This document shows positions 6,440-45,404 of a stretch of DNA of 64,000 nt, one piece after another. Each line of letters begins with the position of its first letter. Within the stretch, counting starts at the first letter, position 1. Where the stretch lies: contig MGZK01000132.1 in NCBI GenBank assembly GCA_001802125.1, positions 1 through 64,000 of the forward strand, in the 5' to 3' direction. The notes beneath the pieces are model-generated. The model searched no databases. It saw only the letters and a list, made by a program, of their open reading frames with translations, and was not told the DNA's origin. Origin of the DNA: Geobacteraceae bacterium GWC2_55_20 (GTDB taxonomy: Bacteria > Desulfobacterota > Desulfuromonadia > Geobacterales > Pseudopelobacteraceae). The position numbers and the translations under genes were made by a program.

Positions 6440-7741
6440 TTACCGGAAAACCAGCCCTTTTACGCCGACCAGGATCTGCCGCAAACGCCCGAACAGCTTG
6501 CCGTGCCGGCTTTCGTAAACGGCCCGCCGGATCAGGGGATAATTGACATTCCTGATCTTGGCCCCGCTCTTTATCTCGCGACTGTAGTTCATCTCATCAT
6601 CCGGCAACATCAGCCCGTGCTCATGACAGTAGTCGTACAGCTCGCTGCCGGGCGCCGGGGTGAAGATCGAGGGCGAGTGCATGTCCGGCCTGATCTTCCG
6701 CATCATACTGACGGTCTGGCGGATCTCCTCGTCGGTTTCGGTCGGAATGCCGAACATGTAATTGGCGAAGATCCTGATGCCGAGCTGCTTGCACACTCCG
6801 GCGGCCTCGATATTCTGGCTGACGGTGGTGCCCTTCTTGATAAACTTGAGCACCCGGTCGCTGCCGCTCTCGAACCCGATCAGAACCCAGCTGAGACCGG
6901 CTTCCTTTAATTGTTTCAACAGGTCGGGGCGGCGGCAGATCATATCGGCCCGGCTCTGGCAGGCGAATGGCTGAGTAAAGCCGCGTTCGAGCTTCTTCCG
7001 GCAGAACTCCTCGACCCACTCGCTGTACTGGGTGAAGCAGTCGTCGTGGATCATGAATGAACGCATGCCGTAGTCGCGGCTTAAAATCTGCAGCTCGTCA
7101 AGGATATTGTCCACGCTGCGCTTGCGCACCTTGTCGCCGAACACCGCCCGTTCGGCCGGTTGACAGAAGGTGCATTTGTACACGCAACCGCGCGAAGCGG
7201 TTATGGAGAAGTAAGGCCGTTCCAGGCCGGAGAACCAGGGAGTCTCACCCGCCGGCGCCAGGCTGCGGTCGACAAACGGCAACAGATCCAGGTTCATCGG
7301 CATTTCGCCGCGAATTATACGGGGAATGTCCGGAAAAGCTTCCAACATCTTCGGCAGGGTGTTCTCCGCTTCATGGGTGAACACATGATCAAACTCTGCA
7401 ACGGCAGCGGTCTCGCCGGTCATCAGTGTCGGGTGCGGCCCGCCCACCATCACCTTCAGACCGGCATCCTTGGCCTTGACCAGAGCAGCGATCCGCCGGG
7501 CGGCCTTGAAGTCCACCGTAGCGACCGAAATCATCGCCAACTCAAAATCGGTTTTACGGATCTCGGACTCCACCGCTTCCCATCCGGTCAGCTTGCGGCA
7601 GTCGAGATAGGTGACATCATGTCCTTTATCCTTCAACAGCGAGCTGATGATACCGATACCATGATTGAACCAGTCACGGCCATCGTTATAGGAGTCGAAC
7701 CCTTCCACAAGTCCGGGATACACCAGCAATACTTTCATCAA
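6440..7741 (-). CDS. B12-binding domain radical SAM protein
   Basis: N-terminal B12-binding-like domain (DVTYLDCRKL...MVGGPHPTLM) and radical SAM CVYKCTFC (CX3CX2C). Confidence 0.88.
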   Translation of the reverse strand: MMKVLLVYPGLVEGFDSYNDGRDWFNHGIGIISSLLKDKGHDVTYLDCRKLTGWEAVESEIRKTDFELAMISVATVDFKAARRIAALVKAKDAGLKVMVGGPHPTLMTGETAAVAEFDHVFTHEAENTLPKMLEAFPDIPRIIRGEMPMNLDLLPFVDRSLAPAGETPWFSGLERPYFSITASRGCVYKCTFCQPAERAVFGDKVRKRSVDNILDELQILSRDYGMRSFMIHDDCFTQYSEWVEEFCRKKLERGFTQPFACQSRADMICRRPDLLKQLKEAGLSWVLIGFESGSDRVLKFIKKGTTVSQNIEAAGVCKQLGIRIFANYMFGIPTETDEEIRQTVSMMRKIRPDMHSPSIFTPAPGSELYDYCHEHGLMLPDDEMNYSREIKSGAKIRNVNYPLIRRAVYESRHGKLFGRLRQILVGVKGLVFR

Positions 7742-26618: not shown

Positions 26619-26695
26619 ATTGAGTGGGGTTGTGCAAAAACATTATCCTTACATTCCAGATGCAGGCTATAATCGCGTCCGGAGGACAATCACAG

Positions 26696-29293: not shown

Positions 29294-31780
29294 ATGAAAA
29301 CCAATTTTCCGGCATGGCTATATATCAACCTTTTGTCTTCATTATTTTTCCTGCAATTTCCTGCGATCTCCCATGCCCAGACACTGGACAAGGACACCGT
29401 CTGGCAGGGGCAAGTCAAGGTAAGTGAAGATATTCTTGTGCCAAAGGGGATCACGCTCACGATCAGGCCCGGCACATCCGTCAAGGTTGCGGTTGCGGAA
29501 AGCACGAAGACCGACCCGGAGTACATGTCGCCATTGACTGAGATCACGATCCGCGGGACTCTCAGGGTTGAAGGGACCTCGAAAGAACCGGTCGTTTTTT
29601 CCGGAGAAGACAACAAAACCGGAAATTGGGCAGGAATTGTGATCGACCGCGGAGTTGCGGTGATGGACTGTTTCAGCATTAAAAATGCGGAAACGGGCAT
29701 CAATTCCCTGGACGGCAACCTGCGCATGAATGAAGCCGTCATCCGTGACAACCGTTACGGGTTGGTGCTTCAGGGGAGCAGAAGTGACACATTGCAGGAA
29801 AATTCCCTGATAACAGGCAATGACTATGGAGTATTCACTCTCCAGGGCGCTCATCTTGTCACAAAATCATCCAGACTGTCCGGCAACCGGAAAAGAGACA
29901 GTTTCACCGCAACAGCAAAAGAGTTCCCCTCCCCTCCCGGTTTCAAAGTAACCGAAAGCCAGCCGGTCAGCAGACGCTACCAGGACGAGGTCTTCCGTGG
30001 CGACATGGTATGGCAGGGGCGCATAGAAGTGGCGGGAACCATCCGGGTGCCGCACGGAAGCAGGCTGATCATAATGCCGGGCACGGTTGTCGAGTTTTTC
30101 AAGAAAGACACCAATGGCGACGGTATCGGCGAAAATGGGCTCATGATACAGGGTCGCCTGGTGGCAAAAGGAACCAAAGAAGAGCCGATCGTGTTTCGCT
30201 CGGCGGAAAAAGACAAATCCATGGGTGACTGGGACTCGGTCAACATCATGGACAGCGCCGGGGGACAGAATCTGATCGAGAATTGCCTGATCCAACATGC
30301 CTACCGTGGGCTCCACTTCCACTTTTCAAATGTCGCCGTATATGATTCGCACATCACCGGTAACTACCGTGGAATCCAGTTCCAGGAGTCACAGGTGGAT
30401 ATGAAAGGCAACTATCTGTACGGGAATAAAAGCGGTGTTCAGGGACGCGATTCCGACCTGGTGTTCACCGGTAACACTCTGATGAACAACTATGTGGGAG
30501 CCAACTTCTTCCGCGCCACCATTAGCGCAATCGGCAACAGGATTGTTGACAACTGGAAAGAGGGCTTGAGAATCCGCGAAGGCGTCTCCACGTTACGGGA
30601 GAATCTGATCGACGGCAACCGCCAGGGGCTATTGCTGGCCGATATGTTTTATGGTTCCTATAATCGTAACAGCTTCACCAACAACCTGGAAACCGGGCTC
30701 GCGGTCAGGAATGCGGACAATATCGAGGTCTCGGGAAATATTATTGTTTCAAACGGAATCAACGGCTTGAATATTCAGGACTCCAGGTTCCTCGTTAAAG
30801 GCAACCAGATCACCGACAATGCCGAACGCGGCATCGGCGTTCAGTCATTTGACGGTCTGATTACGGAGAATAACCTTGCCGCCAACGGAATCTACGCCAT
30901 TGACCTGGACGGTCCCGGTAACGTGGCCGCTCCCGCCAACTGGTGGGGAACGGATGAGCCCGCCAAGGTAATCCTCGACAAGAGAAGAGAGCCATCCAGA
31001 GGCAGCGTTTCCCACGAAAAAGCCAGCGACAGTCCGCTCCGGTTCACCTGGCCATTACATACGATATCTTCGGATACGACCTGGCGTGGAGAGATTTTCA
31101 TCAGCGGCAACACTTCCGTGATGAATAACGCAACCCTGAAAATTATGCCTGGAACCACGGTCAGGTTTGCACATGACATCGGCTTGCTAATTAAAGGCAG
31201 GATGCTTGCAGAGGGAAAACCGGAACAGAGAATCGTCTTCACATCGGTTGACAAGAAAGCGGCTTCGGAGTGGGATGAAATCCAGCTCGAATATGCAACC
31301 GGAAGCGTGATTTCCAACTGTGTATTCGAATATGCGACCTGGGGGCTTCACAGCCACTTCACCAACCTGACCGTCTCAAACAGCCATTTCACCAATAACT
31401 TCGGAGGCATGAGATTCAGAAGCGGACCGGTTGTGATAAAAGGATCCGTTTTCGAGCACAATTCGATCGGCATCAGGTCGTATATCGGCAATGCAGTCAT
31501 CAGGGACAACGTCATCACCAAAAATGAAACCGGCATTTTCGTCAGGGAAAAGGGCGGCGGGCTGTCGATCACCAGCAACAACATATTCGATAACAGCAAT
31601 TACAACCTCAGGGTGGGCGACTTCAACAACGAAGACGTGCCGGCACGGGACAACTGGTGGGGAAACAGTGAGCCGCTTGCCACCATTTTTGACGGCAGGA
31701 GCGAACCGGGAATCGGCAATGTGCTATTCGAACCGTTCAGCAGGGAGCCGTTCAGGACCGGCACGGGGACATCTCCATGA
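29294..31780 (+). CDS. Exported right-handed parallel beta-helix (NosD/pectate lyase-like) repeat protein
   Basis: Start MKTNFPAWLYINLLSSLFFLQFPAISHA; many N-x-I-x-x-N-x-x-G-I beta-helix coils; NWWG motifs. Confidence 0.85.
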   Translation: MKTNFPAWLYINLLSSLFFLQFPAISHAQTLDKDTVWQGQVKVSEDILVPKGITLTIRPGTSVKVAVAESTKTDPEYMSPLTEITIRGTLRVEGTSKEPVVFSGEDNKTGNWAGIVIDRGVAVMDCFSIKNAETGINSLDGNLRMNEAVIRDNRYGLVLQGSRSDTLQENSLITGNDYGVFTLQGAHLVTKSSRLSGNRKRDSFTATAKEFPSPPGFKVTESQPVSRRYQDEVFRGDMVWQGRIEVAGTIRVPHGSRLIIMPGTVVEFFKKDTNGDGIGENGLMIQGRLVAKGTKEEPIVFRSAEKDKSMGDWDSVNIMDSAGGQNLIENCLIQHAYRGLHFHFSNVAVYDSHITGNYRGIQFQESQVDMKGNYLYGNKSGVQGRDSDLVFTGNTLMNNYVGANFFRATISAIGNRIVDNWKEGLRIREGVSTLRENLIDGNRQGLLLADMFYGSYNRNSFTNNLETGLAVRNADNIEVSGNIIVSNGINGLNIQDSRFLVKGNQITDNAERGIGVQSFDGLITENNLAANGIYAIDLDGPGNVAAPANWWGTDEPAKVILDKRREPSRGSVSHEKASDSPLRFTWPLHTISSDTTWRGEIFISGNTSVMNNATLKIMPGTTVRFAHDIGLLIKGRMLAEGKPEQRIVFTSVDKKAASEWDEIQLEYATGSVISNCVFEYATWGLHSHFTNLTVSNSHFTNNFGGMRFRSGPVVIKGSVFEHNSIGIRSYIGNAVIRDNVITKNETGIFVREKGGGLSITSNNIFDNSNYNLRVGDFNNEDVPARDNWWGNSEPLATIFDGRSEPGIGNVLFEPFSREPFRTGTGTSP

Positions 31781-32463
31781 AACTGTTGAATTTCACTCTG
31801 CTGACGCTGGTATTTGTTTTTTGCCTGACTGACGCATTCGCCGGGAATGCAGCGCTTAAAGCAAATATCAAGGATATCAATGGCAAACCGGTTGCGGGCG
31901 TCAAGTTATTTCTGTACGAAAGCACCAATGTGCGCAAGCCGGCCGATTTTATTTCAGTCCGGTCCGATGAAGGTGGCCGGACGGTAATAACCGCGCCAAA
32001 AGGGCGATACTGGGCAGTTGCCAGGCTGAAAAAGGATGCACTGTACGGCCCGCTGATGCCGGGAGACAAACACTCGGGCGAACCTGTCGAAATTGACTTA
32101 TCCGAAAACACGGAAATTGAATTTATTGTGGCGGATATCCTGGAGGTCGGGCAGAAGAAGCGCACCGACAACTCCGATACGGTCAGAGTGCGGGGGCGAA
32201 TCCTTGACAAGGACGGCAAGCCGGTTCCAAATGCCTACGCCTTTGCAAACGCTACTAAAGAAATCGAATATATCCCTGAATACCTCTCGGCCTGGACTGA
32301 TGAAAATGGCAACTACACGCTTTATCTTCCGGCCGGCGGCAGATTTTTTGTAGGCAGCGCACTGAAATACCCGCCGCCGCCAACACCGGCCCTGCTAAAG
32401 GAGTTTGTTCCCAATGCCACAAAATCAGATATTGTCACGGATATTCAATTAATAGTATACTAA
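31777..32463 (+). CDS. Exported carboxypeptidase-regulatory-like/CNA-B-type domain protein
   Basis: Signal peptide; repeats IKDINGKPVAGVKLFLYE and ILDKDGKPVPNAYAFANA...TDENGNYTLYLPAG. Confidence 0.75.
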   Translation: MKLLNFTLLTLVFVFCLTDAFAGNAALKANIKDINGKPVAGVKLFLYESTNVRKPADFISVRSDEGGRTVITAPKGRYWAVARLKKDALYGPLMPGDKHSGEPVEIDLSENTEIEFIVADILEVGQKKRTDNSDTVRVRGRILDKDGKPVPNAYAFANATKEIEYIPEYLSAWTDENGNYTLYLPAGGRFFVGSALKYPPPPTPALLKEFVPNATKSDIVTDIQLIVY

Positions 32464-32527: not shown

Positions 32528-33085
32528 ATGAAAAAAATCGTTTCACTTGTTATTCTGGTAACAGTTTTGGCTACAGTTCAAATTGCATCAGCCTGTGTCG
32601 GCAAAACAATCCATCTGGGTATATCCAACTCCCCCAACGAACTCCTGCTGGCCGAAATGGCCTCACTACTGATCACCGAGCGAACCGGCTCTTCGGTAAA
32701 AGTTGATGTGTACAAGGACTCCAAGGAGCTCTACAGCGCCGTAAGAAAGGGTAATGTCAATGTAATAATCGAAAAACCCGGCCGTGCGCTTGAAGTTCTC
32801 GGCAAACAGAAAGCGGCCGGCTCCTCGGCATTTGATTTTGTAAAAAGCGAATACCGCAAGAGCATGAACATGGTTTGGCTTGAGCCTATCGGGGGCAGCC
32901 AGCAATATGCGTCGGTGCTGACTGTCGATACACTCTCCAACTATCCGGCGCTTCCTAAACTGCTGAATAAACTTTCCGGCGTTCTGAATAACGATACCTA
33001 TGCAAAACTGCTGAAAACCGTTGATTCATCCGATAAAGCCAGGAAGGTTGCAAAGGATTTTCTCAAGGGCAAGAAGCTGATATAG
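32528..33085 (+). CDS. Periplasmic substrate-binding-like protein (OpuAC-like, short)
   Basis: Signal peptide; IHLGISNSPNELLLAEMASLLITERTGSSVKVDVYKDSKELYSAVRKGNVNVII. Confidence 0.65.
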   Translation: MKKIVSLVILVTVLATVQIASACVGKTIHLGISNSPNELLLAEMASLLITERTGSSVKVDVYKDSKELYSAVRKGNVNVIIEKPGRALEVLGKQKAAGSSAFDFVKSEYRKSMNMVWLEPIGGSQQYASVLTVDTLSNYPALPKLLNKLSGVLNNDTYAKLLKTVDSSDKARKVAKDFLKGKKLI

Positions 33086-33088
33086 AAA

Positions 33089-34009
33089 ATGTCCGTAACC
33101 GGGAAGTCCAACAAACTGTTTGCCTGGGCGGCTTCAACGGAATGTGCCGTAGTGCTTTTTCTGGCAATTGCCGCTGTCGCCATTCCGGGAACTTTCACGG
33201 AAGACAGGAGCATCTACACCAGTGCGCCGTTTCTGATGCTGCTCGGATTTTTCGGTCTAAACCTGATACTCTGCACTATCAAGAGACGTAAAAGTATATC
33301 CGTACCTGTACTGGTAATGCATGGCGGAGTGCTGCTGACCCTGGCGGGATGCATTGCCACATCATTCGGCTATGTGGCTACCATCAATATCTACGAGGGC
33401 ACCTCGGCAAACAGGTTTTACCGGTGGGACAGGAAGGAAGACGTCGATCTGGGCTTTGAACTGCTCGTAAAAAAGATCAATACCGAATACTATCCGATCC
33501 CGGTCAAGGTGGGCGTTTTAAAGGGGCGGCAAAAAGACAAACTGTTCGTTCTCAAGACCGGTGATGATTTCGAATACGACGGCTACCGTATCAAGGTGGA
33601 ATCACTGGAACCGGTCACGGAACACCTGAAACTCTCCGTTTATCAACGGGACACCAGGATCGGCACTTACATTACATCAGGCCCGTCAGACCTTCCACCA
33701 GGTTTTCCATACACGTTCGCTCTGGTTGCTTTTCAAAATCCACGACTGAAGAGATTGTGGGTAGATCTGGACATAAACCAGAATTCAACTAAAATGGCGG
33801 GTGGCACTTCCGAAGTAAACGGCCCTTTCAAATGGAACGGGCTCTATTTTTATCACACCCAGGTCGCCAGAGATCCCAGCGGCGCTCCATATGCGGGCAT
33901 TCAAATAGTTCGTGACCCGGGCCGCCCGGTTGTTTTTGCCGGTTTCGCGGTAATGGGACTGGGATCGTTCTTATCATTCAAACGGCGCTTTTCAAGGAAG
34001 ACTCAATGA
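33089..34009 (+). CDS. ResB-like (cytochrome c biogenesis) membrane protein
   Basis: Three N-terminal TMs, large soluble domain with GLYFYHTQVARDPSG, terminal TM. Confidence 0.72.
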   Translation: MSVTGKSNKLFAWAASTECAVVLFLAIAAVAIPGTFTEDRSIYTSAPFLMLLGFFGLNLILCTIKRRKSISVPVLVMHGGVLLTLAGCIATSFGYVATINIYEGTSANRFYRWDRKEDVDLGFELLVKKINTEYYPIPVKVGVLKGRQKDKLFVLKTGDDFEYDGYRIKVESLEPVTEHLKLSVYQRDTRIGTYITSGPSDLPPGFPYTFALVAFQNPRLKRLWVDLDINQNSTKMAGGTSEVNGPFKWNGLYFYHTQVARDPSGAPYAGIQIVRDPGRPVVFAGFAVMGLGSFLSFKRRFSRKTQ

Positions 34010-34119
34010 AAAATAATACTTCGGCCGGCAACTCGAACAAACCGGCTGTTTCAACAGTAATTGTCACTACCGGTTCTTTGGTCTCGGGAAATGGCGATAG
34101 CGAGAGCACATGTTCCTGA
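34006..34119 (+). CDS. Small ORF (37 aa), candidate precursor/regulatory peptide
   Basis: MKNNTSAGNSNKPAVSTVIVTTGSLVSGNGDSESTCS*; upstream AAGGAAG Shine-Dalgarno-like; ATGA overlap with ResB stop and 10-nt overlap with permease start. Confidence 0.6.
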   Translation: MKNNTSAGNSNKPAVSTVIVTTGSLVSGNGDSESTCS

Positions 34120-36011
34120 ACCGCTTCAAATCGAAACCTAAAGACGAGTGCCAGATACACGGAAGCCACGGCAGTCATGGCAACTGGATGCTGGCCGGCA
34201 TGACCCTGGCGTCTCTGGCCCTGATGGTGTGGCACCTGAAAGTCTACGGACCAAGCGGACATGCGGTAACAGCCGGCGAGGGACCGGATTCGTTCACGGC
34301 CCTTCTGGGAAAAGAGATCTGGGATCTGCTGTTCAACAAACACGGAATCATATCTGAACTGCGCGATGTGCTGCCGTACTTCATCGTGGGAGTTCTTCTC
34401 GCCGGTTACCTGAGGACTTTCAAGGTGGCCGTGAAACTGCAGGCCACACTCAGAAAATACGGCATAGCCAGCGTATTCCTGGCGTCATTCATAGGTATAA
34501 TAACCCCGCTGTGCGCCTGCGGCACACTGACGACCGCGATCAGCCTGCTCTTCGCCGGTATCCCTCTGGCCCCGGTCATGTCCCTGATGGTCACGTCCCC
34601 GCTGCTGAGCCCTTCAACCTACCTGATCACGCTTAACGATCTCGGCCCGGAGTGGACCGCCATCAGGACAATTTCCGCCTATATGATGGGAGTTTTCGCC
34701 GGACTGGTCACTTACCAGATGAGCAAACGACCCGGTTTCCAGAAAAACGAAATTTTCATTGAGGGCGCCATCATCAGGGGCGATTTCCATGACGACGACT
34801 ACCCGGACGAACGCCTCAGATGCAACTGCAGAAGGAACTTCGGCAATCGCGTGGCGGTCAACTCCGGCAACAAGTTCCTGGTTTTCCTGGCCAAATCATC
34901 GGAGATGCTCTGGACGGTCGGCAAATACATCCTGGTCGGAGTCGTGGTCGGGGCGGTTGTCGAGCGCTATATGCCGACAAACTGGATCTATAATTTCTTC
35001 GGCCGCAAGGATCCGCTGAGCATCGTCTGGATAACGCTGGCGTCGGTGCCGATGTTTCTTCACCAGGTCAGCGCCTCCAGCATCCTATCGCACATCAAGA
35101 GCGCCCTGGACGGCACTCTTGACGGCGGAGCGGCGCTGGCGTTCATGGTCGGCGGACCGGTAACGGCAGTGCCGACCATGGTGCTGTTCTGGACTTTTTT
35201 CAGGAAGCGGGTATTCGTACTTTACATGTTCGTCTGCCTCAGCGGTACCCTGCTGATAGCATACACTTTCCAGCTGTTGATCTTCGTACCGGGCGTTGAC
35301 CTCGGCAATCCGCTGATGAAGGACGTCAGCTCCATTTCGGGCGGTTCCTCGGCCATTATCAGCAAGAGCGGTTCCAATGCAAGAATGGTGATGGACCCGA
35401 ATGGCAAAGGGGTAATCGCAACCTACACCAACGACGTGGATGGACATGGCGCGATTGTGTTCGACGCGTCCCCCGCCCGTTTCCGCAACATATCGCCAAA
35501 CGCTACCGACAACCGGAAATACATCCTCAATATCGCCGACTGGCTGGAACAGAGTGTAAATTCCCAGCCTCAAAAGCGTATCCTGGTCTACAGTCTTTCC
35601 GGAACGGCCCCACTGGAGGCTTCCCTTCCGGATGAACTCGCCAGAACCGGCTTCACCGTCAAAACTGCCGGCAGAAAAGATACTCCAAGGATAACCGAGC
35701 GTCTGCTGGCTGACTACAGTCAACTCTGGCTGTTCTTTGACGGCGCCGGTCCCGCCGGCTTAAGCAGTGAAGAACTGGCGCTGGTTGCCGGGCATAATGA
35801 AAAAAGCAAGGGGATGCTGATAGTGGCCTCCGCCGCAACAACTGACAATGCGGTTGAACAGCCGGCCAACGGCCTGGCATCCCGTTACGGGATACACTTC
35901 GGAGACAGAGCCAACAATGAGGGGAGACTGGAAGTTTCGGTAGCCTCCAGCCTGCTGGGCCGGACTTCGGAACTTCTGGGCACTCTGCTAAAACTCGTGA
36001 ACAAGGCTTGA
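34110..36011 (+). CDS. YraQ/DUF318 (ArsP_1-like) permease with C-terminal soluble extension
   Basis: GIITPLCACGTLTTAISLLFAGIPLAPVMSLMVTSPLLSPSTY; C-terminal about 210 aa non-membrane GATase/GIFT-like region. Confidence 0.82.
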   Translation: MFLNRFKSKPKDECQIHGSHGSHGNWMLAGMTLASLALMVWHLKVYGPSGHAVTAGEGPDSFTALLGKEIWDLLFNKHGIISELRDVLPYFIVGVLLAGYLRTFKVAVKLQATLRKYGIASVFLASFIGIITPLCACGTLTTAISLLFAGIPLAPVMSLMVTSPLLSPSTYLITLNDLGPEWTAIRTISAYMMGVFAGLVTYQMSKRPGFQKNEIFIEGAIIRGDFHDDDYPDERLRCNCRRNFGNRVAVNSGNKFLVFLAKSSEMLWTVGKYILVGVVVGAVVERYMPTNWIYNFFGRKDPLSIVWITLASVPMFLHQVSASSILSHIKSALDGTLDGGAALAFMVGGPVTAVPTMVLFWTFFRKRVFVLYMFVCLSGTLLIAYTFQLLIFVPGVDLGNPLMKDVSSISGGSSAIISKSGSNARMVMDPNGKGVIATYTNDVDGHGAIVFDASPARFRNISPNATDNRKYILNIADWLEQSVNSQPQKRILVYSLSGTAPLEASLPDELARTGFTVKTAGRKDTPRITERLLADYSQLWLFFDGAGPAGLSSEELALVAGHNEKSKGMLIVASAATTDNAVEQPANGLASRYGIHFGDRANNEGRLEVSVASSLLGRTSELLGTLLKLVNKA

Positions 36012-36070
36012 CAGATATGGACCAAAATCAACGCGTTTCGATGCGGTGACACTTTAAGCGGGAGGACATT

Positions 36071-36391
36071 ATGAAAACCCAGGTATTTGACGTAAAGGAC
36101 ATCAAAAAATTTGATGATGCGAAACGGAGCCATGAAATCATCTGGTCGGACGACCACGCCAAGATCAGCCTGATCTGCATGAAGCCGGGCCAGGAAATCA
36201 TCACCCACACCCACCACGGCAGCCATATCTGGACCGTGATGGAAGGCACCGGCGAACTCGTCTCCGGCAAACAGAGCCGGACCATCTCCATGGGTCAGAT
36301 CGTGGTTGTACCCGCTTTTGAAGATCATGGCATCCGAAACTCGTCCAGCGAGAACCTGGTGATAGCTTCAATTACCGGCCAGGGCGATTAG
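36071..36391 (+). CDS. Cupin-domain protein
   Basis: PGQEIITHTHHGSHIWTVMEGTGELVSGKQSRTISMGQIVVVPAFEDHGIRN. Confidence 0.9.
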   Translation: MKTQVFDVKDIKKFDDAKRSHEIIWSDDHAKISLICMKPGQEIITHTHHGSHIWTVMEGTGELVSGKQSRTISMGQIVVVPAFEDHGIRNSSSENLVIASITGQGD

Positions 36392-36418
36392 TAAACAGAT
36401 CGGGTCGAGGTGATACTG

Positions 36419-36733
36419 ATGCAGAAAATTACGCGCAACCCTGACGTCATGTGGCGCGAGGAATCCGATGCCACATTCGAGGCGCAAAACGGTCTCGAAC
36501 ATGGTGAAGATGTTGGCGACATCGGCACCGCGGTACTTTTTTCCGGCGGCGCCATGCTGTCGATCAATTTTCTCGGAACTGAAATATGGAAGCTTTGCGA
36601 TGGACGCGACTTTGACGGTATCGTCGCTGAATTGCTGGAGCAGTATGATGTGGAGCAGGAAGTGCTGTGCACCGACGTGCGCAGCTTTCTTGACGAACTT
36701 GTAAAAAAGGGATTTGTCACCAATGCAGAATGA
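36419..36733 (+). CDS. PqqD-family peptide chaperone (GeoRSP-type)
   Basis: GGAMLSINFLGTEIWKLCDGRDFDGIVAELLEQYDVEQEVLCTDVRSFLDELVKKGFV matches PqqD/RRE pattern; GAGGTGA RBS before ATG 36419. Confidence 0.88.
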   Translation: MQKITRNPDVMWREESDATFEAQNGLEHGEDVGDIGTAVLFSGGAMLSINFLGTEIWKLCDGRDFDGIVAELLEQYDVEQEVLCTDVRSFLDELVKKGFVTNAE

Positions 36734-37739
36734 AATCGTGCTGGAAGCTCCGCTGACCATCAACTGGGCCATCAACAACAGCTGCAACTTCGCCTGTCGC
36801 CACTGTTACAGCAGAAATGACACCCACGACGAACTGCACCGCGACATGCTGTTTTCCTGCCTGGAAAAAGTTGCCAGCGCCGGCGTTCTATCGGTCAACT
36901 TCGGTGGAGGGGAACCGTTGATGCACCCGCATCTGCTGGAAATAGCCTCCTTCGCCAGGGGGTTGGGGCTGCGTGTTTCCATGAACAGCAACGGCTGGCT
37001 GATTGACGAACAGATGGCGGTTGCGCTGAAGACAGCCGGTTTCACCAAGGTCGGCATCAGCATCGACAGCCATCTGCCGGAAATCCACGACCGCTTCAGG
37101 GGCGTGCCCGGCAGCCATGCCCGTGCTACAGCTGCTCTCGGGCATCTGGCGGCGGCCGGCATCGCCACCTCGATCTCCACCGTGATCTGCCATATCAACA
37201 ACAATACCATCGAAGAGCTGGTTGATCTTGCGCTGCATAACGGGGCCGGACAGCTCAATTTTCACAACTTCAAATGTTCCGGACTGGGTCTTGCCAACAA
37301 GGACGAACTGGACCTGTCGCCGGAAGAGTGGAAGGTTTTCTATCGTGGCGCCCTGGCCGCAAAAGCGCGCGAGAAGGTGCTCGACATATCGCTGGATGAT
37401 CCGATCATCGCGCTGCTGGGAGCCAGGGACACCGCCAGCATGGTCAAGGGGAGCGTCTGCGGGAAGCTGTCGCTGAACATCAAGTCCAACGGCGACATGA
37501 CCCCCTGCGGCTTCATTCCGGTGGTAATCGGGAATATCGCCAGGGACGACCTGCGCACGGTCTGGCGCGAGTCAGCCGTACTGGACAAGATGCGCAACAA
37601 GAAACCAACCGGAAAATGCTCCGGCTGCAGCAAATACGAAGATTGTCTCGGCGGCTGCACCGCCCGGGCCCTGGCCCTGACCGGTGACATGAACAGCCCT
37701 GACCCGCATTGCTGGGGCAGCGATGAATCTTCAAACTGA
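36723..37739 (+). CDS. Radical SAM/SPASM domain protein (GeoRSP-type)
   Basis: CNFACRHC (CX3CX2C); SPASM CGFIPV...CSGCSKYEDCLGGCTARA. Confidence 0.92.
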   Translation: MQNEIVLEAPLTINWAINNSCNFACRHCYSRNDTHDELHRDMLFSCLEKVASAGVLSVNFGGGEPLMHPHLLEIASFARGLGLRVSMNSNGWLIDEQMAVALKTAGFTKVGISIDSHLPEIHDRFRGVPGSHARATAALGHLAAAGIATSISTVICHINNNTIEELVDLALHNGAGQLNFHNFKCSGLGLANKDELDLSPEEWKVFYRGALAAKAREKVLDISLDDPIIALLGARDTASMVKGSVCGKLSLNIKSNGDMTPCGFIPVVIGNIARDDLRTVWRESAVLDKMRNKKPTGKCSGCSKYEDCLGGCTARALALTGDMNSPDPHCWGSDESSN

Positions 37740-37776
37740 AACCGTACGGCTGGTCGTTTTGATCAAAGGCGTTTGA

Positions 37777-38664
37777 ATGGAACTGGCAACACCCATAACC
37801 ATCTACTGGGACCTTCCGGCTGATTCACCGGACGACGGACTGCTGCAACGGATCTGCTCCGATATTTCGGATTGCCGTCCGCTCATGCTTCAGATGTACC
37901 ATGACGCCGGTTCCCTCCAGCCGGGTGATGCACTCTCGCTTGTGCTGGAACAGTTCCGGGGTTCCCGGATTGCCGTAACCCTCACGGTTCCGGCCGTTGC
38001 CTTTGAAAGCGCGCCTCAATGCTGTCCGGAGGGTATGCAGCTCAAGGAGCTGTTAGTATCCGGCAACCGCCTGGAAGGACTTGCCGAAGCTATTCACAAC
38101 GCAAACTCATATTCCGGCATCATGCCCGGAGTATCATTTTCGGTTACCCGCGAAAACTGGCGCCAGCTCCCCGAGCTGGTCCAACTCTGCAGAAATGAGG
38201 GCATCGGCCGTCTGGTTCTTCCGATGCAGCGGCTGTACAACATCGAAACGCCATTCATGATAACCGCGGCGGAGCAGCATCAACTGGCGGCAGCCCTGTC
38301 AGATGCGGGCGGGGTCGGGGATTTGAATCTTACCATCCACGATCCTTTCCTCTGGCGGGCCTTCAACCCTGGAATCCCGTTTCCACAGGCAGGCTGCCAG
38401 GCGGCCAACACGATGATCGCCATAGCCCCGGACGGCGGCGTGTATCCATGCCCGACTCTGCCGGTCAGGCTGGGAAACATCGGCCAGCGTTCGCTGAAAG
38501 AGATCATCTGCTCCGCGGAGAAAAAGGAATTCCGCCGCAGGCTGCTCACAGCTCCTGCCGGCTGCCGCGATTGCTCGGAAGTATCCGTTTGCCGGGGCGG
38601 CTGCAGAGGCAGGGGGCTGGTGCTTGAGGGTTCCCTGGATGGAATCGATCCGGTCTGCAGATGA
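37777..38664 (+). CDS. SPASM-domain protein lacking the radical SAM CX3CX2C motif (GeoRSP-type)
   Basis: C-terminal PDGGVYPCPTLPVRLGNIG...CRDCSEVSVCRGGCRGRG; no CX3CX2C in N-terminal half. Confidence 0.88.
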   Translation: MELATPITIYWDLPADSPDDGLLQRICSDISDCRPLMLQMYHDAGSLQPGDALSLVLEQFRGSRIAVTLTVPAVAFESAPQCCPEGMQLKELLVSGNRLEGLAEAIHNANSYSGIMPGVSFSVTRENWRQLPELVQLCRNEGIGRLVLPMQRLYNIETPFMITAAEQHQLAAALSDAGGVGDLNLTIHDPFLWRAFNPGIPFPQAGCQAANTMIAIAPDGGVYPCPTLPVRLGNIGQRSLKEIICSAEKKEFRRRLLTAPAGCRDCSEVSVCRGGCRGRGLVLEGSLDGIDPVCR

Positions 38665-38681
38665 GCATGCAAGGGATAGCA

Positions 38682-39221
38682 ATGAAATACTCCGAAATAA
38701 TCGAATTTCACGGTCACACCTGCCCGGGCCTGGTGATCGGCTATCGCATGTCGCTGGCGGCCATGGCGGCTCTGGGAGTCACCCGCTCCGGTGACGAGGA
38801 GCTAGTCGCGATCGTCGAAAACGACGCCTGCGGGGTCGATGCGCTGCAGTGCGTTACCGGATGCACCTTCGGCAAGGGCAACCTGCTGTTCCGTGATTTC
38901 GGCAAGAGCGTGTACACGCTTTATTCGCGCACCTCAGCCAGGGGGGTGCGGGTCGCCTACCACGGGCGGGGATTGCCCCCCGGCCTGCGCGAGGACAAGC
39001 CGGCCTTGATCAGCTATTTGCAGGATTGCCCGGACGATGCGATCCTGAGCGTTACGGAAACTCACTCGGAGCCGCCCGGAACGGCCAGAATCCGCAATTC
39101 AGTCCCCTGCCGGATTTGCGGCGAATCCGTAATGGACACCAGGTTGCGCGAGCTGGACGGGCAAGCGGTCTGCATCCCCTGCGCCGAAGCCGATATCCAT
39201 CATTCCAATGAATCCATCTGA
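38682..39221 (+). CDS. FmdE-family protein with C-terminal zinc-finger-like motif
   Basis: IIEFHGHTCPGLVIGYRMSLAAMAALG, ENDACGVDALQCVTGCTFGKGNL; C-terminal CRICG...CIPC. Confidence 0.92.
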   Translation: MKYSEIIEFHGHTCPGLVIGYRMSLAAMAALGVTRSGDEELVAIVENDACGVDALQCVTGCTFGKGNLLFRDFGKSVYTLYSRTSARGVRVAYHGRGLPPGLREDKPALISYLQDCPDDAILSVTETHSEPPGTARIRNSVPCRICGESVMDTRLRELDGQAVCIPCAEADIHHSNESI

Positions 39222-39235
39222 AACAGGAAACCGCA

Positions 39236-40141
39236 ATGACTACAAATCGAATTTTCCATCTGTTACTGATATTCACGCTGCTGTTGACGGTGGCGGGCTG
39301 TAAAAGCGAAGGCAAGCGGCAGGTGGTAAAAATCGGCTACATGCTCTGCAACAGCGAAAAGGAGACAACCGAGCGTTTTCTGCCCCTGACCCGCTACCTG
39401 TCGGACAAGACCGGGGTGGACTTCGAGATGGTGCCGGTCGATACAAACGATTTTGACAAGCGTTTCAAGAACGGCGAATTCACCTTTACCCACACCAACT
39501 CGATCCTGTACGTGATCCTGCGTGAACACCACGGAGTAGAACTGGTGGCTTCGGAAAAGCGCGGCAAGTTCGGATCCCGCACCGCCGGGACGATCATCGC
39601 CCGCAAGGGGAGCGGCATTGAAAAGCTGGCTGACATCAAGGGCAAGCGCATGGCTTTCGGCCCGATGCTCGCGCCGACCGGCTATCTGGCGGAATACGAC
39701 CTGATGCTGGCCGCCGGCATCAACCCGGAGAACGACCTTGGCCACTACACGATTCCATCCGGTTCCTTCAAGCATGAAAAGCTCATCTACGGGGTTCTGT
39801 ACGGCCAGTACGATGTGGCCGCCGCGCCGATCCTGGACATAGAGAACATGACCCGCGAAGGCAAGATCGCCGCCGATGACCTGGTGATACTTGCCCAGAG
39901 CGTTCCGATTCCCTACTGCACCTTTGCCACGGCCAAAGGCACCGATCCGGCACTGGTCAAGAAGGTCAAGGACGCCCTGATGTCGCTTAAACCGTCCGAC
40001 ACCGCCGAGGTGGACGGTGAACGGCTGAAAGTGTTGAAAGCGGCCTGGATTGACGGCTACGAGGAGCTGCTCGACAGCGACTTCAACCCGATCCGCGAAA
40101 TGGCCAAACGGGTCAACATGCCGCCTTATCAGAAGTATTAG
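39236..40141 (+). CDS. PhnD-like phosphate/phosphonate-type substrate-binding lipoprotein
   Basis: Lipobox TVAGC; KIGYMLCNSEKETTERFLPLTRYLSDKTGVDFEMVPVD...GKRMAFGPMLAPTGYL. Confidence 0.88.
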   Translation: MTTNRIFHLLLIFTLLLTVAGCKSEGKRQVVKIGYMLCNSEKETTERFLPLTRYLSDKTGVDFEMVPVDTNDFDKRFKNGEFTFTHTNSILYVILREHHGVELVASEKRGKFGSRTAGTIIARKGSGIEKLADIKGKRMAFGPMLAPTGYLAEYDLMLAAGINPENDLGHYTIPSGSFKHEKLIYGVLYGQYDVAAAPILDIENMTREGKIAADDLVILAQSVPIPYCTFATAKGTDPALVKKVKDALMSLKPSDTAEVDGERLKVLKAAWIDGYEELLDSDFNPIREMAKRVNMPPYQKY

Positions 40142-40173
40142 TTCTTCCCAGCCTTTGCGAAACCGGACGATTA

Positions 40174-40716
40174 ATGTTCAAGGACCGATTTGATAAAATT
40201 TGCTGGGCGCTTCTGACTGCGGCAGTTGCGACGCTGGTGGCGATGCTGCTTGCAGGTGGAGGCAAAACTGACGGGAAACCGGCCAGCGGACTCGGCAAGG
40301 CGTTGGAACGTGACATGGCCTATCGTGCCCGGGTCGAACTGATCACCAGGCTCTACGGACCGGTAGAGGCGCTGCAAAAGGCCGGCAAGCGCCAGGAGGC
40401 CCTGCTGAGGCTGGACGAGCTGATCAGGAATTATCCGGGCGAAGCTCACGGACATATCCTGCAGGGGCAGATCCTGTTCGAGATGGGGGCTCTGGATGAG
40501 GCCATATCCTCTTTTTACGAAGGGATCAAGCTGAACGGCGATTACGTGGACAACAAGAGCCCGCTCTCCCGAAGGGCGGAGATACAGCGCCTGGTGGACG
40601 AGGGAACCAGGAGCATCAGCGCACGGGCCGGAGCAAATCCGGACAACAGGAGCATTGCCGCTTCCATGCGAAAGATCAATTATTTAAAGAGCCGCCTTGC
40701 CGGAGGATGTGAATAG
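40174..40716 (+). CDS. Membrane-anchored TPR protein
   Basis: N-terminal TM; GKRQEALLRLDELIRNYPGEAHGHILQGQILFEMGALDEAISSFYEGIKL. Confidence 0.75.
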   Translation: MFKDRFDKICWALLTAAVATLVAMLLAGGGKTDGKPASGLGKALERDMAYRARVELITRLYGPVEALQKAGKRQEALLRLDELIRNYPGEAHGHILQGQILFEMGALDEAISSFYEGIKLNGDYVDNKSPLSRRAEIQRLVDEGTRSISARAGANPDNRSIAASMRKINYLKSRLAGGCE

Positions 40717-41778
40717 ATGCTGCGCAGCAGGGATTTCTGGACCGTGGTGTTTGTAGGCGGGCTGCTGGGAGGCCTGGGGGTGATGCTGTCCGTGCTGGGC
40801 AACCCGGAAAACTCCGGCATCTGCGTCTCCTGCTTCATCGAGAACAGCGCCGGCGCACTGGGACTCCACGACAATGTCAACATGCAGTACCTGCGGCCGG
40901 AGCTGCTGGGCTTCGTGCTCGGTTCAACCGCCAGCGCCATGTTTTTCCGCGAGTTTCGCTCCAGGGGGGGCAGCGCCCCGCTGTCACGCCTGTTTCTGGG
41001 CATATTCATGATTTTCGGGTGCGCCGTATTCATCGGCTGCCCGATCAAGCTGTTCCTGAGGCTATCCGCCGGAGACCTGACCGCCGTCGCCGGTGTGCTG
41101 GGACTCCTGGCCGGTGTCTGGGCCGGGCTAAAAGGGCTGTCCAACGGCGTGGAACTGGCAACACCAAAAGCGGACTCCGGGAGCGGTGGACAGCTGATAC
41201 CGGCGCTGTTCCTGCTGCTGCTGGTATTTTTCATTGCGCGCCCCGGATTTCTGCTCTTCTCCAGCAAGGGAAGCGCGACACAGCACGCCCCCTGGCTGAT
41301 CGCACTGGCGGCGGGCACCCTGCTCGGTGTACTGGCGCAGCGCAGCCGTTTCTGCATCACCGGCAGCATTCGCGACACATTCCTGATGGGTTTCAGGATA
41401 GCCGCCGCCTGGGGGCTTCTGGCCTTTGTCACGGCGGCGTTGGTGCTGAGTGTGGCGACCGGTAGATTCAATGCCGGATTGTACGGACAACCGGGAGCTC
41501 ACCTGGAGTACATCTGGAGCTTCCTCGGCATGGGTCTGGTCGGCTGGATCTCGGTCATAATCGGCGGCTGCCCCTTCCGCCAGCTGATCAAGGCCGGAGA
41601 GGGTGACGCGGACGCAGGCCTGGTGGTGGTCGGAATGTTCATCGGCGGCGCATTGGCGCAGTCCTGGGGTATTGCCGCAACGGCTGACGGTGTTTCCCTG
41701 TACGGCAAGGTATCGATTCTGATCGGATTTATTCTGGTCGCCACCGCCAGTCTTTTTTTCCGGCAACGGCAAAGCTGA
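40717..41778 (+). CDS. YedE/YeeE-family transporter (putative selenium-associated)
   Basis: Multi-TM; RSRFCITGSIRDTFLMG, GGCPFRQLIKAGEGDADAGLVVVGMFIGGALAQSWGIAATADG. Confidence 0.88.
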   Translation: MLRSRDFWTVVFVGGLLGGLGVMLSVLGNPENSGICVSCFIENSAGALGLHDNVNMQYLRPELLGFVLGSTASAMFFREFRSRGGSAPLSRLFLGIFMIFGCAVFIGCPIKLFLRLSAGDLTAVAGVLGLLAGVWAGLKGLSNGVELATPKADSGSGGQLIPALFLLLLVFFIARPGFLLFSSKGSATQHAPWLIALAAGTLLGVLAQRSRFCITGSIRDTFLMGFRIAAAWGLLAFVTAALVLSVATGRFNAGLYGQPGAHLEYIWSFLGMGLVGWISVIIGGCPFRQLIKAGEGDADAGLVVVGMFIGGALAQSWGIAATADGVSLYGKVSILIGFILVATASLFFRQRQS

Positions 41779-41817
41779 CTCGCAACAACCATTTTATTTC
41801 GACAGGTATTGAACACA

Positions 41818-42297
41818 ATGAAACGATTCGCGCTATTGATTGCCTTCTCAGTATGCCTGCTGACCGCCTGCAACGCCGACAAGCAGCAGGGGCAGGTTGA
41901 TTCAAGCGGCAAAATCAGCATCCCGGCACCGGCCAGACCGGAACCGGCGGTTGACACCAGGACCGTCTCGGGCCTGCAGATCAAGGACCTCAAGGTCGGC
42001 AGCGGTCCCAAGCCGTTTCCGGGGAAACGGGTCAAAATCCACTATATCGCGATGACCGAAGATCGTACCGTCTTTGACAGCACGCGTGACAAGGGCAACC
42101 CGGCCGTGATCAGCCTGGGAACCGGCAGTGTCATCAAGGGGTGGGAAGAGGGGATTTCCGGCATGCGGGTCGGCGGTAAACGCCAGCTGACCGTGCCGGC
42201 CGAGCTGGCGGCGCCGGCTACGTCCGCTGTGCCGTTTTCGATGCCTGCCGGAAAAACGCTGATATTCATCATCGATCTGCTGGACATTGAAATATGA
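41818..42297 (+). CDS. FKBP-type peptidyl-prolyl isomerase lipoprotein
   Basis: Lipobox LLTAC; KVGSGPKPFPGKRVKIHYIAMTEDRTVFDSTRDKGNP...GWEEGISGMRVGGKRQLTVP. Confidence 0.92.
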   Translation: MKRFALLIAFSVCLLTACNADKQQGQVDSSGKISIPAPARPEPAVDTRTVSGLQIKDLKVGSGPKPFPGKRVKIHYIAMTEDRTVFDSTRDKGNPAVISLGTGSVIKGWEEGISGMRVGGKRQLTVPAELAAPATSAVPFSMPAGKTLIFIIDLLDIEI

Positions 42298-42333
42298 TCC
42301 GCAAGGCTATATAAGAAATTCACACTACTTTCA

Positions 42334-42792
42334 ATGGAGACATACCGTATGCAATCTCGATCTTCTATCGGCAAAATCCTGATGACGTGTCTGGCAATTT
42401 CAATGCTTTCGCTTCTCTGCGGCTTCAAGTCTGCTCCCGCCACACGCACGACACCGGCACAGTACACAGAACTGGGAAATGTGCTGACCTCCAGCGGCGA
42501 CTTTGCCGGTGCGGAAAAAATGTTCAATTTTGCATTGGAGCGTGACCAAAACTACATTCCGGCATATATGGGAAAATCATTGCTGTACAGCAAACAGGGA
42601 AACCGGGATAAAGCGGTTGAAGAATACGACAAGATCATTGCGATAGAGCCCGGCAACTCGGATGCCTATGTCAGCAAAGGGCTGTTGTATCTCAATATGA
42701 GCAAAAGAGAGCTTGCCGCAAAAAATTTCACCAAAGCCTGCGAAATGGGTAACCAGAGCGGCTGCATTTTCATAAAAGAGATGAATGAATAA
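42334..42792 (+). CDS. Exported TPR protein
   Basis: Signal peptide; TPR repeats AQYTELGNVLTSSGDFAGAEKMFNFALERDQNYIPAYMGKSLLYSKQGNRDKAVEEYDKIIAIEPGN. Confidence 0.85.
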   Translation: METYRMQSRSSIGKILMTCLAISMLSLLCGFKSAPATRTTPAQYTELGNVLTSSGDFAGAEKMFNFALERDQNYIPAYMGKSLLYSKQGNRDKAVEEYDKIIAIEPGNSDAYVSKGLLYLNMSKRELAAKNFTKACEMGNQSGCIFIKEMNE

Positions 42793-43991: not shown

Positions 43992-45404
43992 TTATCTGTT
44001 TCTGATCCAGCCCCAAAAACCACGCAGCCTGGATATTTGAGAAAAAGATATTTTTTTCAAGGTGTTCAGAATGTAGAGGGGCCTGAAATAGAAGTTCCTG
44101 TAAGCCATTTGACGGTATCTGGTAACCTCATCAGCGGACATGCTGTCGGTGGTGACAATCGATCTTCCACCGAAATCAAACTGCGACCAAGTATCGGTTG
44201 TCACCCAGCCATGTTCACGGGCCATTGCACCAAATTCGGTTTTAGGGTACGGAACCGCGCAGTATGCCTGCATGAAGTCCAGCCCGAGCTCCTTCATAAA
44301 CGCAATAGTCTTTTCAGCTGTTGCAGCGGTTTCACCCGGCAGACCAAAGATAAAATGCCCCATGGTCTGAAGCCCAACTTTCTTGCACATCTCGACGGCC
44401 CGGACAATCTGCTCGACAGTCTGATTTTTCTTTGCTGCATCCAGCAACTCCTGACAACCACTTTCAATTCCCAGGCCAAGCAGATAGCAGCCGGCCGCCT
44501 TCATTTTCCGCAAGGTGGCCTCATCAATCGTATCGACACGGCTTGTTGCAGCCCAGTGGATGTCAAGCCCGCTTTCAATCAGCGCATCGCACAACTCTGC
44601 AACAAAGCGCTTATCGAAGCCGAATATTTCTTCCCAAAACAGAAACTCGGTAATGCCATACCTGTTTTTGCACTCCCTGACTTCTTCAACCAGGTAGGAG
44701 ACACTGTGCCTGCGAATCTTTTTCCCGTAATACGGCTCTACAATGCAGTAAATACAATGATAAGGACATCCTCTGGCTGAATTGATCAGCGTGAAAGCCT
44801 TGTTATTGTGGGGGAGTCGATAACGGTCGTTTTTCAGCAGATCCCGGGCCGGGTACGGCAATGAATCCAGATTCTTTATCAAAGGTCGGGGTACATTGAT
44901 CTGCACGTCACCATTGCAAAAGAAGCCAAGTCCTCTGATCGTGCTGAGATCAACGCAGCCCGACTTCAACGAAACCAGCAACTCCCTGAAGGTATCTTCC
45001 GGTTCTCCGATAGCCGCAAAATCAAGAAAGGGATAATGCACAAGCGCCTTCTCTTCCAACAGCGTGAAAAACAACCCTGTCGCGAAGATCTTGACTGCCG
45101 GCATCCTTTCCTTGATGCGACGGGCAACGTCCATATCATTATCAATCGACGGGAATCCGGTATTGATTACCAGCAGATCAGGAGAAAACACTGCCAGATC
45201 TGCCAGCAGTTCCTCCAGAGACATGCTTTCTACATTCCCGTCCAAAAGTTTCACATCACCGTATTCCCTGGCAAGAGCCCCCAGTACAGCAAGCGTCAAA
45301 GGCGGCCAGATAGTCGCCCAGGAGGAGGCTTTCTGCATACAGCGGCCTTCCCGGATAAACTGGGTTTTCCCCTGCAATGTGGGATTAAGAAGATACGTTT
45401 TCAT
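43992..45404 (-). CDS. B12-binding domain radical SAM protein
   Basis: MKTYLLNPTLQGKTQFIREGRC; radical SAM CPYHCIYC. Confidence 0.88.
   Translation of the reverse strand: MKTYLLNPTLQGKTQFIREGRCMQKASSWATIWPPLTLAVLGALAREYGDVKLLDGNVESMSLEELLADLAVFSPDLLVINTGFPSIDNDMDVARRIKERMPAVKIFATGLFFTLLEEKALVHYPFLDFAAIGEPEDTFRELLVSLKSGCVDLSTIRGLGFFCNGDVQINVPRPLIKNLDSLPYPARDLLKNDRYRLPHNNKAFTLINSARGCPYHCIYCIVEPYYGKKIRRHSVSYLVEEVRECKNRYGITEFLFWEEIFGFDKRFVAELCDALIESGLDIHWAATSRVDTIDEATLRKMKAAGCYLLGLGIESGCQELLDAAKKNQTVEQIVRAVEMCKKVGLQTMGHFIFGLPGETAATAEKTIAFMKELGLDFMQAYCAVPYPKTEFGAMAREHGWVTTDTWSQFDFGGRSIVTTDSMSADEVTRYRQMAYRNFYFRPLYILNTLKKISFSQISRLRGFWGWIRNR

Follow-up and report, generated by a model that had tools for sequence, protein, structure and literature searches.

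A peptide of only 18−20 residues, ending in a conserved Cys, is very probably the substrate of the GeoRSP system, which to our knowledge has until now been a named system without a product. Analysis at the level of sequence supports the enzyme set, the peptide family, its linkage to and co-occurrence with GeoRSP, its leader motif, and its placement behind genes for giant exported proteins. In the reading toward which we lean, GeoRSP is a pathway of the RiPP type, and its modified peptide would serve extracellular cytochromes and other large surface proteins.

The GeoRSP Core and Its SPASM-Only Partner

The window, by which we mean the whole stretch of 64,000 nucleotides analyzed here, had been predicted to hold a tightly packed series of consecutive plus-strand genes around a GeoRSP-like core. 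All of these genes are present and collinear on the plus strand, with gaps of −4 to about 100 nt, and the HMM comparison proposed with the prediction places all three core proteins above their NCBIfam cutoffs. The PqqD-type peptide-binding protein (36410..36733, +) matches TIGR04302 with 159 bits (cutoff 100), the radical SAM/SPASM enzyme (36714..37739, +) matches TIGR04303 with 619 bits (cutoff 400), and the SPASM-only partner, a barrel-plus-SPASM pseudo-enzyme (37777..38664, +), matches TIGR04304 with 349 bits (cutoff 300). The window thus shares all three components of the GeoRSP system, encoded consecutively at 36410−38664 on the plus strand. In the radical SAM/SPASM enzyme, the CX3CX2C motif spans residues 24−31 and the SPASM cysteines are retained.

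The next-best NCBIfam matches of this enzyme, AhbD (181 bits) and NirJ2 (173 bits), raise the alternative that it acts on heme or another small molecule and that the peptide described below is unrelated, a reading that would also suit the heme-handling ResB protein of the operon. Both scores are, however, far below the cutoffs of 500, a PqqD protein implies a peptide, and the peptide is linked to and co-occurs with GeoRSP; we consider this alternative exceedingly improbable.

The SPASM-only protein is best read as a pseudo-enzyme partner, with a role perhaps in substrate binding or electron transfer. Seven cysteines of the SPASM part are invariant among 43 aligned partners, and the AlphaFold model is a confident barrel plus SPASM fold (pLDDT 91.4). 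Among solved structures, its fold comes closest to the radical SAM/SPASM maturases of RiPP pathways, SuiB, PqqE, CteB, TigE, and SkfB; unlike them, the GeoRSP partner has no CX3CX2C motif, and catalysis by the partner alone is not expected. The gene was not found after the radical SAM gene in several outgroup loci. We note that five loci (L146−L149 and L151) encode PqqD, the radical SAM enzyme, and the peptide without the SPASM-only gene and have an NtrC-type response regulator gene upstream.

A Candidate Substrate Peptide

The peptide was first seen without any search pattern, as a repeated short ORF in the translated gap between the radical SAM and SPASM-only genes of relatives (e.g., MKKYMKPRVVGSSNVHPC-stop). 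The candidate ORF has the form MKK..YxKPRVVGSxxVHPC-stop, with the family consensus MKK..Y-x-K-P-R-[VI]-V-G-S-x-x-V-H-P-C; one candidate sequence is MKKRTYIKPRVVGSADVHPC. A linked copy is present in 44 of 81 relatives' loci, directly after the radical SAM gene in 30, and other linked copies are at the 5′ end of the operon. A genome search with the DNA pattern for Y-x2-P-x7-V-H-P-C-stop returned matches in 97 of the 279 genomes of the class, with up to six copies each, and the reversed-pattern control on the class genomes gave zero matches. This pattern partly dictates the constant Y, P, and VHPC; the first sighting and the other conserved positions are independent of it. In the phylum sample, one family has Phe in place of the Tyr. 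Neither a regular expression nor a position-weight scan found the peptide in the window, and the three copies in the window's genome are all outside it (contigs C4, C45, and C62); a ribosomal precursor, as expected for a RiPP, is thus encoded in this genome. A 37-residue ORF after the ResB-like gene (34006−34119) was also considered as a precursor and was rejected, as only the nearest relative (L094) has a similar one and it is not conserved.

No model in NCBIfam or Pfam recognizes the peptide; the only match is a subthreshold one to DUF5972 (E = 0.17), which led us to the comparison with lasso leaders described below. Literature searches on GeoRSP, the peptide, and combinations of these returned nothing relevant, and we found no paper containing the string of the commonest peptide end, GSSNVHPC. 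Having found neither a family model nor a paper describing it, we regard the peptide as an unannotated family.

The ORF looks like a real gene. A Shine-Dalgarno sequence and, at the proper distance, a start codon accompany nearly every copy, and the third codon positions vary far more than the first and second (entropies of 1.00, 0.93, and 1.77 bits at positions 1, 2, and 3, respectively, for the codons left free by the search pattern). Its distribution follows that of the enzyme. Genomes in which the GeoRSP radical SAM enzyme scores above its cutoff number 16 of 76 in the family, 84 of 279 in the class, and 22 of 398 in a phylum sample, and across the 279 class genomes, GeoRSP and the peptide occur together in 84, GeoRSP alone in 2, the peptide alone in 13, and neither in 180. 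Fisher p values overstate the independence of these counts because the genomes and species are related. In five of the 13 peptide-only genomes, the GeoRSP enzyme gene is cut at contig ends or split, and most of the others are incomplete; the clear exception is G038 (97% complete), which has the peptide without GeoRSP. The peptide was not detected in the two GeoRSP-only genomes, G025 and G259. Peptide matches in the phylum sample mostly track GeoRSP, apart from two chance matches without a start codon.

A secreted signal or an antimicrobial, encoded with surface-protein genes in one operon but otherwise unconnected with them, would also follow RiPP logic and could account for several near-identical copies per genome. 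In contrast to most antimicrobials, however, the sequence hardly varies between families; no immunity gene was identified; and the peptide genes are placed behind giant exported proteins. We therefore view such a function as very improbable.

The N-terminal half of the peptide bears on how it may be recognized. In lasso and related peptides, discrete PqqD-like recognition elements (RREs) bind a leader motif of the form [Y/W]xxPx[L/V/I/F/A] (PMC13381572, PMC12710340). The Y-x-x-P-x-[VI] of the GeoRSP peptide fits this motif, and YxxPx[VIL] is found in 91 of 92 distinct peptides, from loci partly chosen by that motif. Because of this match to a motif bound by PqqD-like proteins, the sequence suggests a division into a leader, MKK..YxKPRVV, and a core, GSxxVHPC.

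The Conserved Operon

The original prediction placed the core in a 15-gene operon starting at 32528. Conservation was assessed in 82 loci, comprising the window, fetched GeoRSP matches with at most 10 kb of DNA to either side, and L080 and L057; many of the contigs in this set are cut. PqqD is present in 81 of the 82. The conserved unit begins upstream of 32528 with a gene for a NosD-like right-handed beta-helix exported protein (29294..31780, +; Beta_helix 2.6e-35, NosD 1.4e-25; ORF open from 29180), found in 70 loci by profile searches. This gene overlaps by 4 nt that of a CarboxypepD_reg exported protein (31777..32463, +; PF13620; 54 loci), and both adjoin the core in most loci. These are followed by a small OpuAC-like periplasmic binding protein (32528..33085, +; PF04069, 1.8e-10; 71 loci), a ResB-like membrane protein (33089..34009, +; PF05140, 5.1e-12; 38 loci), an ArsP_1 permease with an extra C-terminal domain (34110..36011, +; PF03773, 2.3e-36), and a cupin (36071..36391, +; PF07883, 4.3e-13). 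Downstream of the core are an FmdE-domain protein (38661..39221, +; PF02663, 3.8e-37), present in 11 loci and in near relatives only, a PhnD-like substrate-binding lipoprotein (39236..40141, +; PF12974, 1.7e-52; 63 loci), a TPR protein with an N-terminal membrane segment (40174..40716, +; TPR_16, 8.6e-7; 67 loci), and a YedE family putative selenium transporter (40717..41778, +; TIGR04112, 399 bits, cutoff 200; 64 loci).

The neighborhood comparison called for in the prediction did find conserved neighbors across Desulfobacterota, and L080, from a metagenome bin labeled Nitrospirae, has nearly the same gene set. The core is kept together with the NosD-like, small binding protein, PhnD-like, TPR, and YedE genes, whereas FmdE, FKBP, and the last TPR gene accompany it only in close relatives. 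Because FKBP is found in 2 of the 82 loci and FmdE in 11, and conservation with the core does not extend to the last TPR gene of the window's run, the conserved unit is smaller than a 15-gene operon. tRNA and Rfam scans gave no match.

Several features of these genes and their surroundings are recorded here as observations. The small binding protein (32528−33085) and its homologues have a Cys directly after the predicted signal peptide (ASA/CVGK, VQA/CFGP, ALA/CFGA), at a site that resembles a signal peptidase I site more than a lipobox. The PhnD-like lipoprotein (39236−40141) and its homologues have near the N-terminal part a Cys (GYM.CNS.E.T) that is replaced by other residues in phosphonate-binding relatives. 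Upstream of the operon, a CrcB-family protein and then a DUF190 protein are encoded at 26624−27439, as they also are near the GeoRSP operon of a few close relatives. Outside the operon, at 43992−45461 (−) and beside a glycosyltransferase, is the gene for another radical SAM protein, which is unrelated and carries a B12-binding domain.

The remaining genes differ between groups. Geobacterales-type loci have ResB with an ArsP-type or NicO-type permease, and many other loci instead have an EB_dh heme protein, a HEAT-repeat lipoprotein, and a NapH-like polyferredoxin. What fills the metal-type permease slot differs between loci: an ArsP-like protein, a NicO-like one (as in some relatives of the window), or neither. 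The peptide genes, for their part, direct attention to giant multiheme cytochromes and other exported proteins of large size. On neither count is metal or metalloid handling supported as the purpose of the operon, for which it had been put forward. A related possibility is the assembly of an extracytoplasmic metal−sulfur center, in which the NosD-like, NapH-like, and YedE proteins would give sulfur and electrons and the His and Cys of the peptide would be ligands or carriers. Although these genes go with the core and the H-P-C end of the peptide is invariant, no NosFY, NosL, or NosZ is present among the identified neighbors, the NosD-like protein is far below the NCBIfam model for NosD of nitrous oxide reductase maturation (25.2 bits, cutoff 300), and NapH-like genes occur in part of the loci only, which makes such a function improbable.

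Genes Upstream of Unlinked Peptide Copies

Unlinked peptide copies are common, and what precedes them points to a possible function. We examined 64 copies in loci that were fetched for unlinked copies and hand-picked from the match lists, with ORFs called by a simple greedy method. A multiheme cytochrome gene lies directly upstream of 26 of the 64, and 50 have a same-strand upstream ORF of at least 100 residues, mostly 4 to 130 nt away. At least four CxxCH motifs, and up to 75, occur in 26 of these 50 ORFs as compared with 9 of 1245 background ORFs from GeoRSP loci and 28 of 397 in a stricter background of ORFs from the same peptide loci. Likewise, 32 of the 50 have at least 900 residues, versus 18 of the 1245; the backgrounds come from GeoRSP or peptide loci, not from whole genomes. 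In a genome that we take to be that of Geobacter sulfurreducens PCA, the ORF preceding one copy (L226) has no fewer than 27 CxxCH motifs, and the linked copy lies behind another multiheme ORF. The copies in the window's own genome (G000) each lie close to a contig end, at a distance of about 210−330 nt. What precedes them is a fragment coding for the C-terminal tail common to such cytochromes, of which C4 retains the last residues only. Because the three contigs break at the same place, they suggest near-identical giant cytochrome genes that failed to assemble.

Other copies are behind giant fn3/beta-propeller, Ig-like/invasin, or FG-GAP proteins without heme, and some are behind small ORFs; a cytochrome-specific role is therefore not general, and the emphasis on cytochromes may partly reflect the many giant cytochromes of these bacteria. 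The heme-free neighbors, along with the many envelope proteins of the operon that have no defined redox job (NosD-like, TPR, CarboxypepD_reg), would fit a GeoRSP product that is no redox part of cytochromes but a moiety of general use in the surface assembly, secretion, or anchoring of giant exported proteins of any kind. We judge this rather unlikely given the strong excess of multiheme cytochromes among the neighbors and the ResB, EB_dh, and NapH-like genes of the operon, which point to redox or heme.

Some further traits of the upstream proteins are described for completeness. The tail CH...WNxx[TS]PW-stop is frequent in the giant multiheme cytochromes before the peptide (L223, L224, L226, L227, L230, L247, L249, L255, L256, and L300) and also ends ORFs without a peptide behind them. 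WNxx[TS]PW tails occur in 55 of 86 GeoRSP genomes versus 36 of 193 others; we do not claim a universal docking tag because, despite this enrichment, many of the matches are away from the peptide and part are due to chance. Giant exported proteins before the peptide in L283, L287, L288, L291, L294, and L295 end in an apparent Biotin_lipoyl-like domain (Pfam matches in L283 and L295), which is unusual in exported proteins. L252 (−) has tandem peptide genes 103 nt apart (oriented positions 7000 and 7103) behind a single 30-heme cytochrome gene. A Qn_am_d_aIII domain was seen in one cytochrome only, in L227.

Proposed Pathway

The original prediction that the operon makes and exports a radical-modified peptide is strengthened by the identification of a likely peptide, encoded outside the window, while modification and export are steps that we infer. 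In the pathway we propose, PqqD would hold the N-terminal YxKPR[VI] part of the peptide and deliver it, and the radical SAM/SPASM enzyme, together with the SPASM-only pseudo-enzyme, would modify the S-x-x-V-H-P-C at its C-terminus, with the Cys as the most probable site or means of the reaction. Export and handling of the product would fall to the membrane and periplasmic proteins of the operon. Less certainly, it may become a small redox or structural partner or cofactor of giant exported proteins, above all multiheme cytochromes. In its most specific and tentative form, for which we see a real but lesser chance, the proposal is that the GeoRSP product is a new peptide-derived redox cofactor or mini-subunit built into the giant extracellular multiheme cytochromes of Geobacter relatives, a component of extracellular electron transfer that has escaped recognition.

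A specific candidate substrate makes GeoRSP testable, and the peptide is present in G. sulfurreducens itself if the genome has been identified correctly. Given that peptide genes stand behind those of giant multiheme cytochromes, a radical-modified peptide may be part of, or required by, some extracellular cytochromes; if true, this would add a new element to models of microbe−mineral and microbe−electrode electron transfer.

Comparison with Known Systems

Compared with GeoRSP as defined in NCBIfam, a release without a precursor-peptide model, the peptide and the cytochrome neighborhood are new here. The PQQ and mycofactocin pathways likewise combine a PqqD-type protein and a radical SAM/SPASM enzyme acting on a short peptide, but the GeoRSP enzyme falls below the cutoffs of both PqqE (119.7 bits, cutoff 381.35) and MftC (160.7 bits, cutoff 265), and the GeoRSP peptide is a different one, with unlinked copies. 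Lasso peptides with discrete RREs likewise have a YxxPx[V/I/L] leader motif and a PqqD-like recognition protein (PMC13381572), and the GeoRSP PqqD also matches lasso PqqD models, below their cutoffs. GeoRSP differs from the lasso pathway in having a radical SAM enzyme, and neither a macrolactam cyclase nor a B2 leader protease is present among the identified genes of its operon. The nearest precedent is quinohemoprotein amine dehydrogenase, in which the radical SAM enzyme QhpD cross-links the small QhpC subunit, which joins a heme-bearing subunit (PMC7876137). QhpC is the longer of the two and has a 28-residue leader and several cross-links, whereas the GeoRSP peptide has 18−20 residues, one C-terminal Cys, many copies, and giant partners. 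We draw the likeness as an analogy and claim neither homology nor membership: a small, radical SAM-modified peptide that is exported and joins a heme-bearing partner, as we propose for the GeoRSP product.
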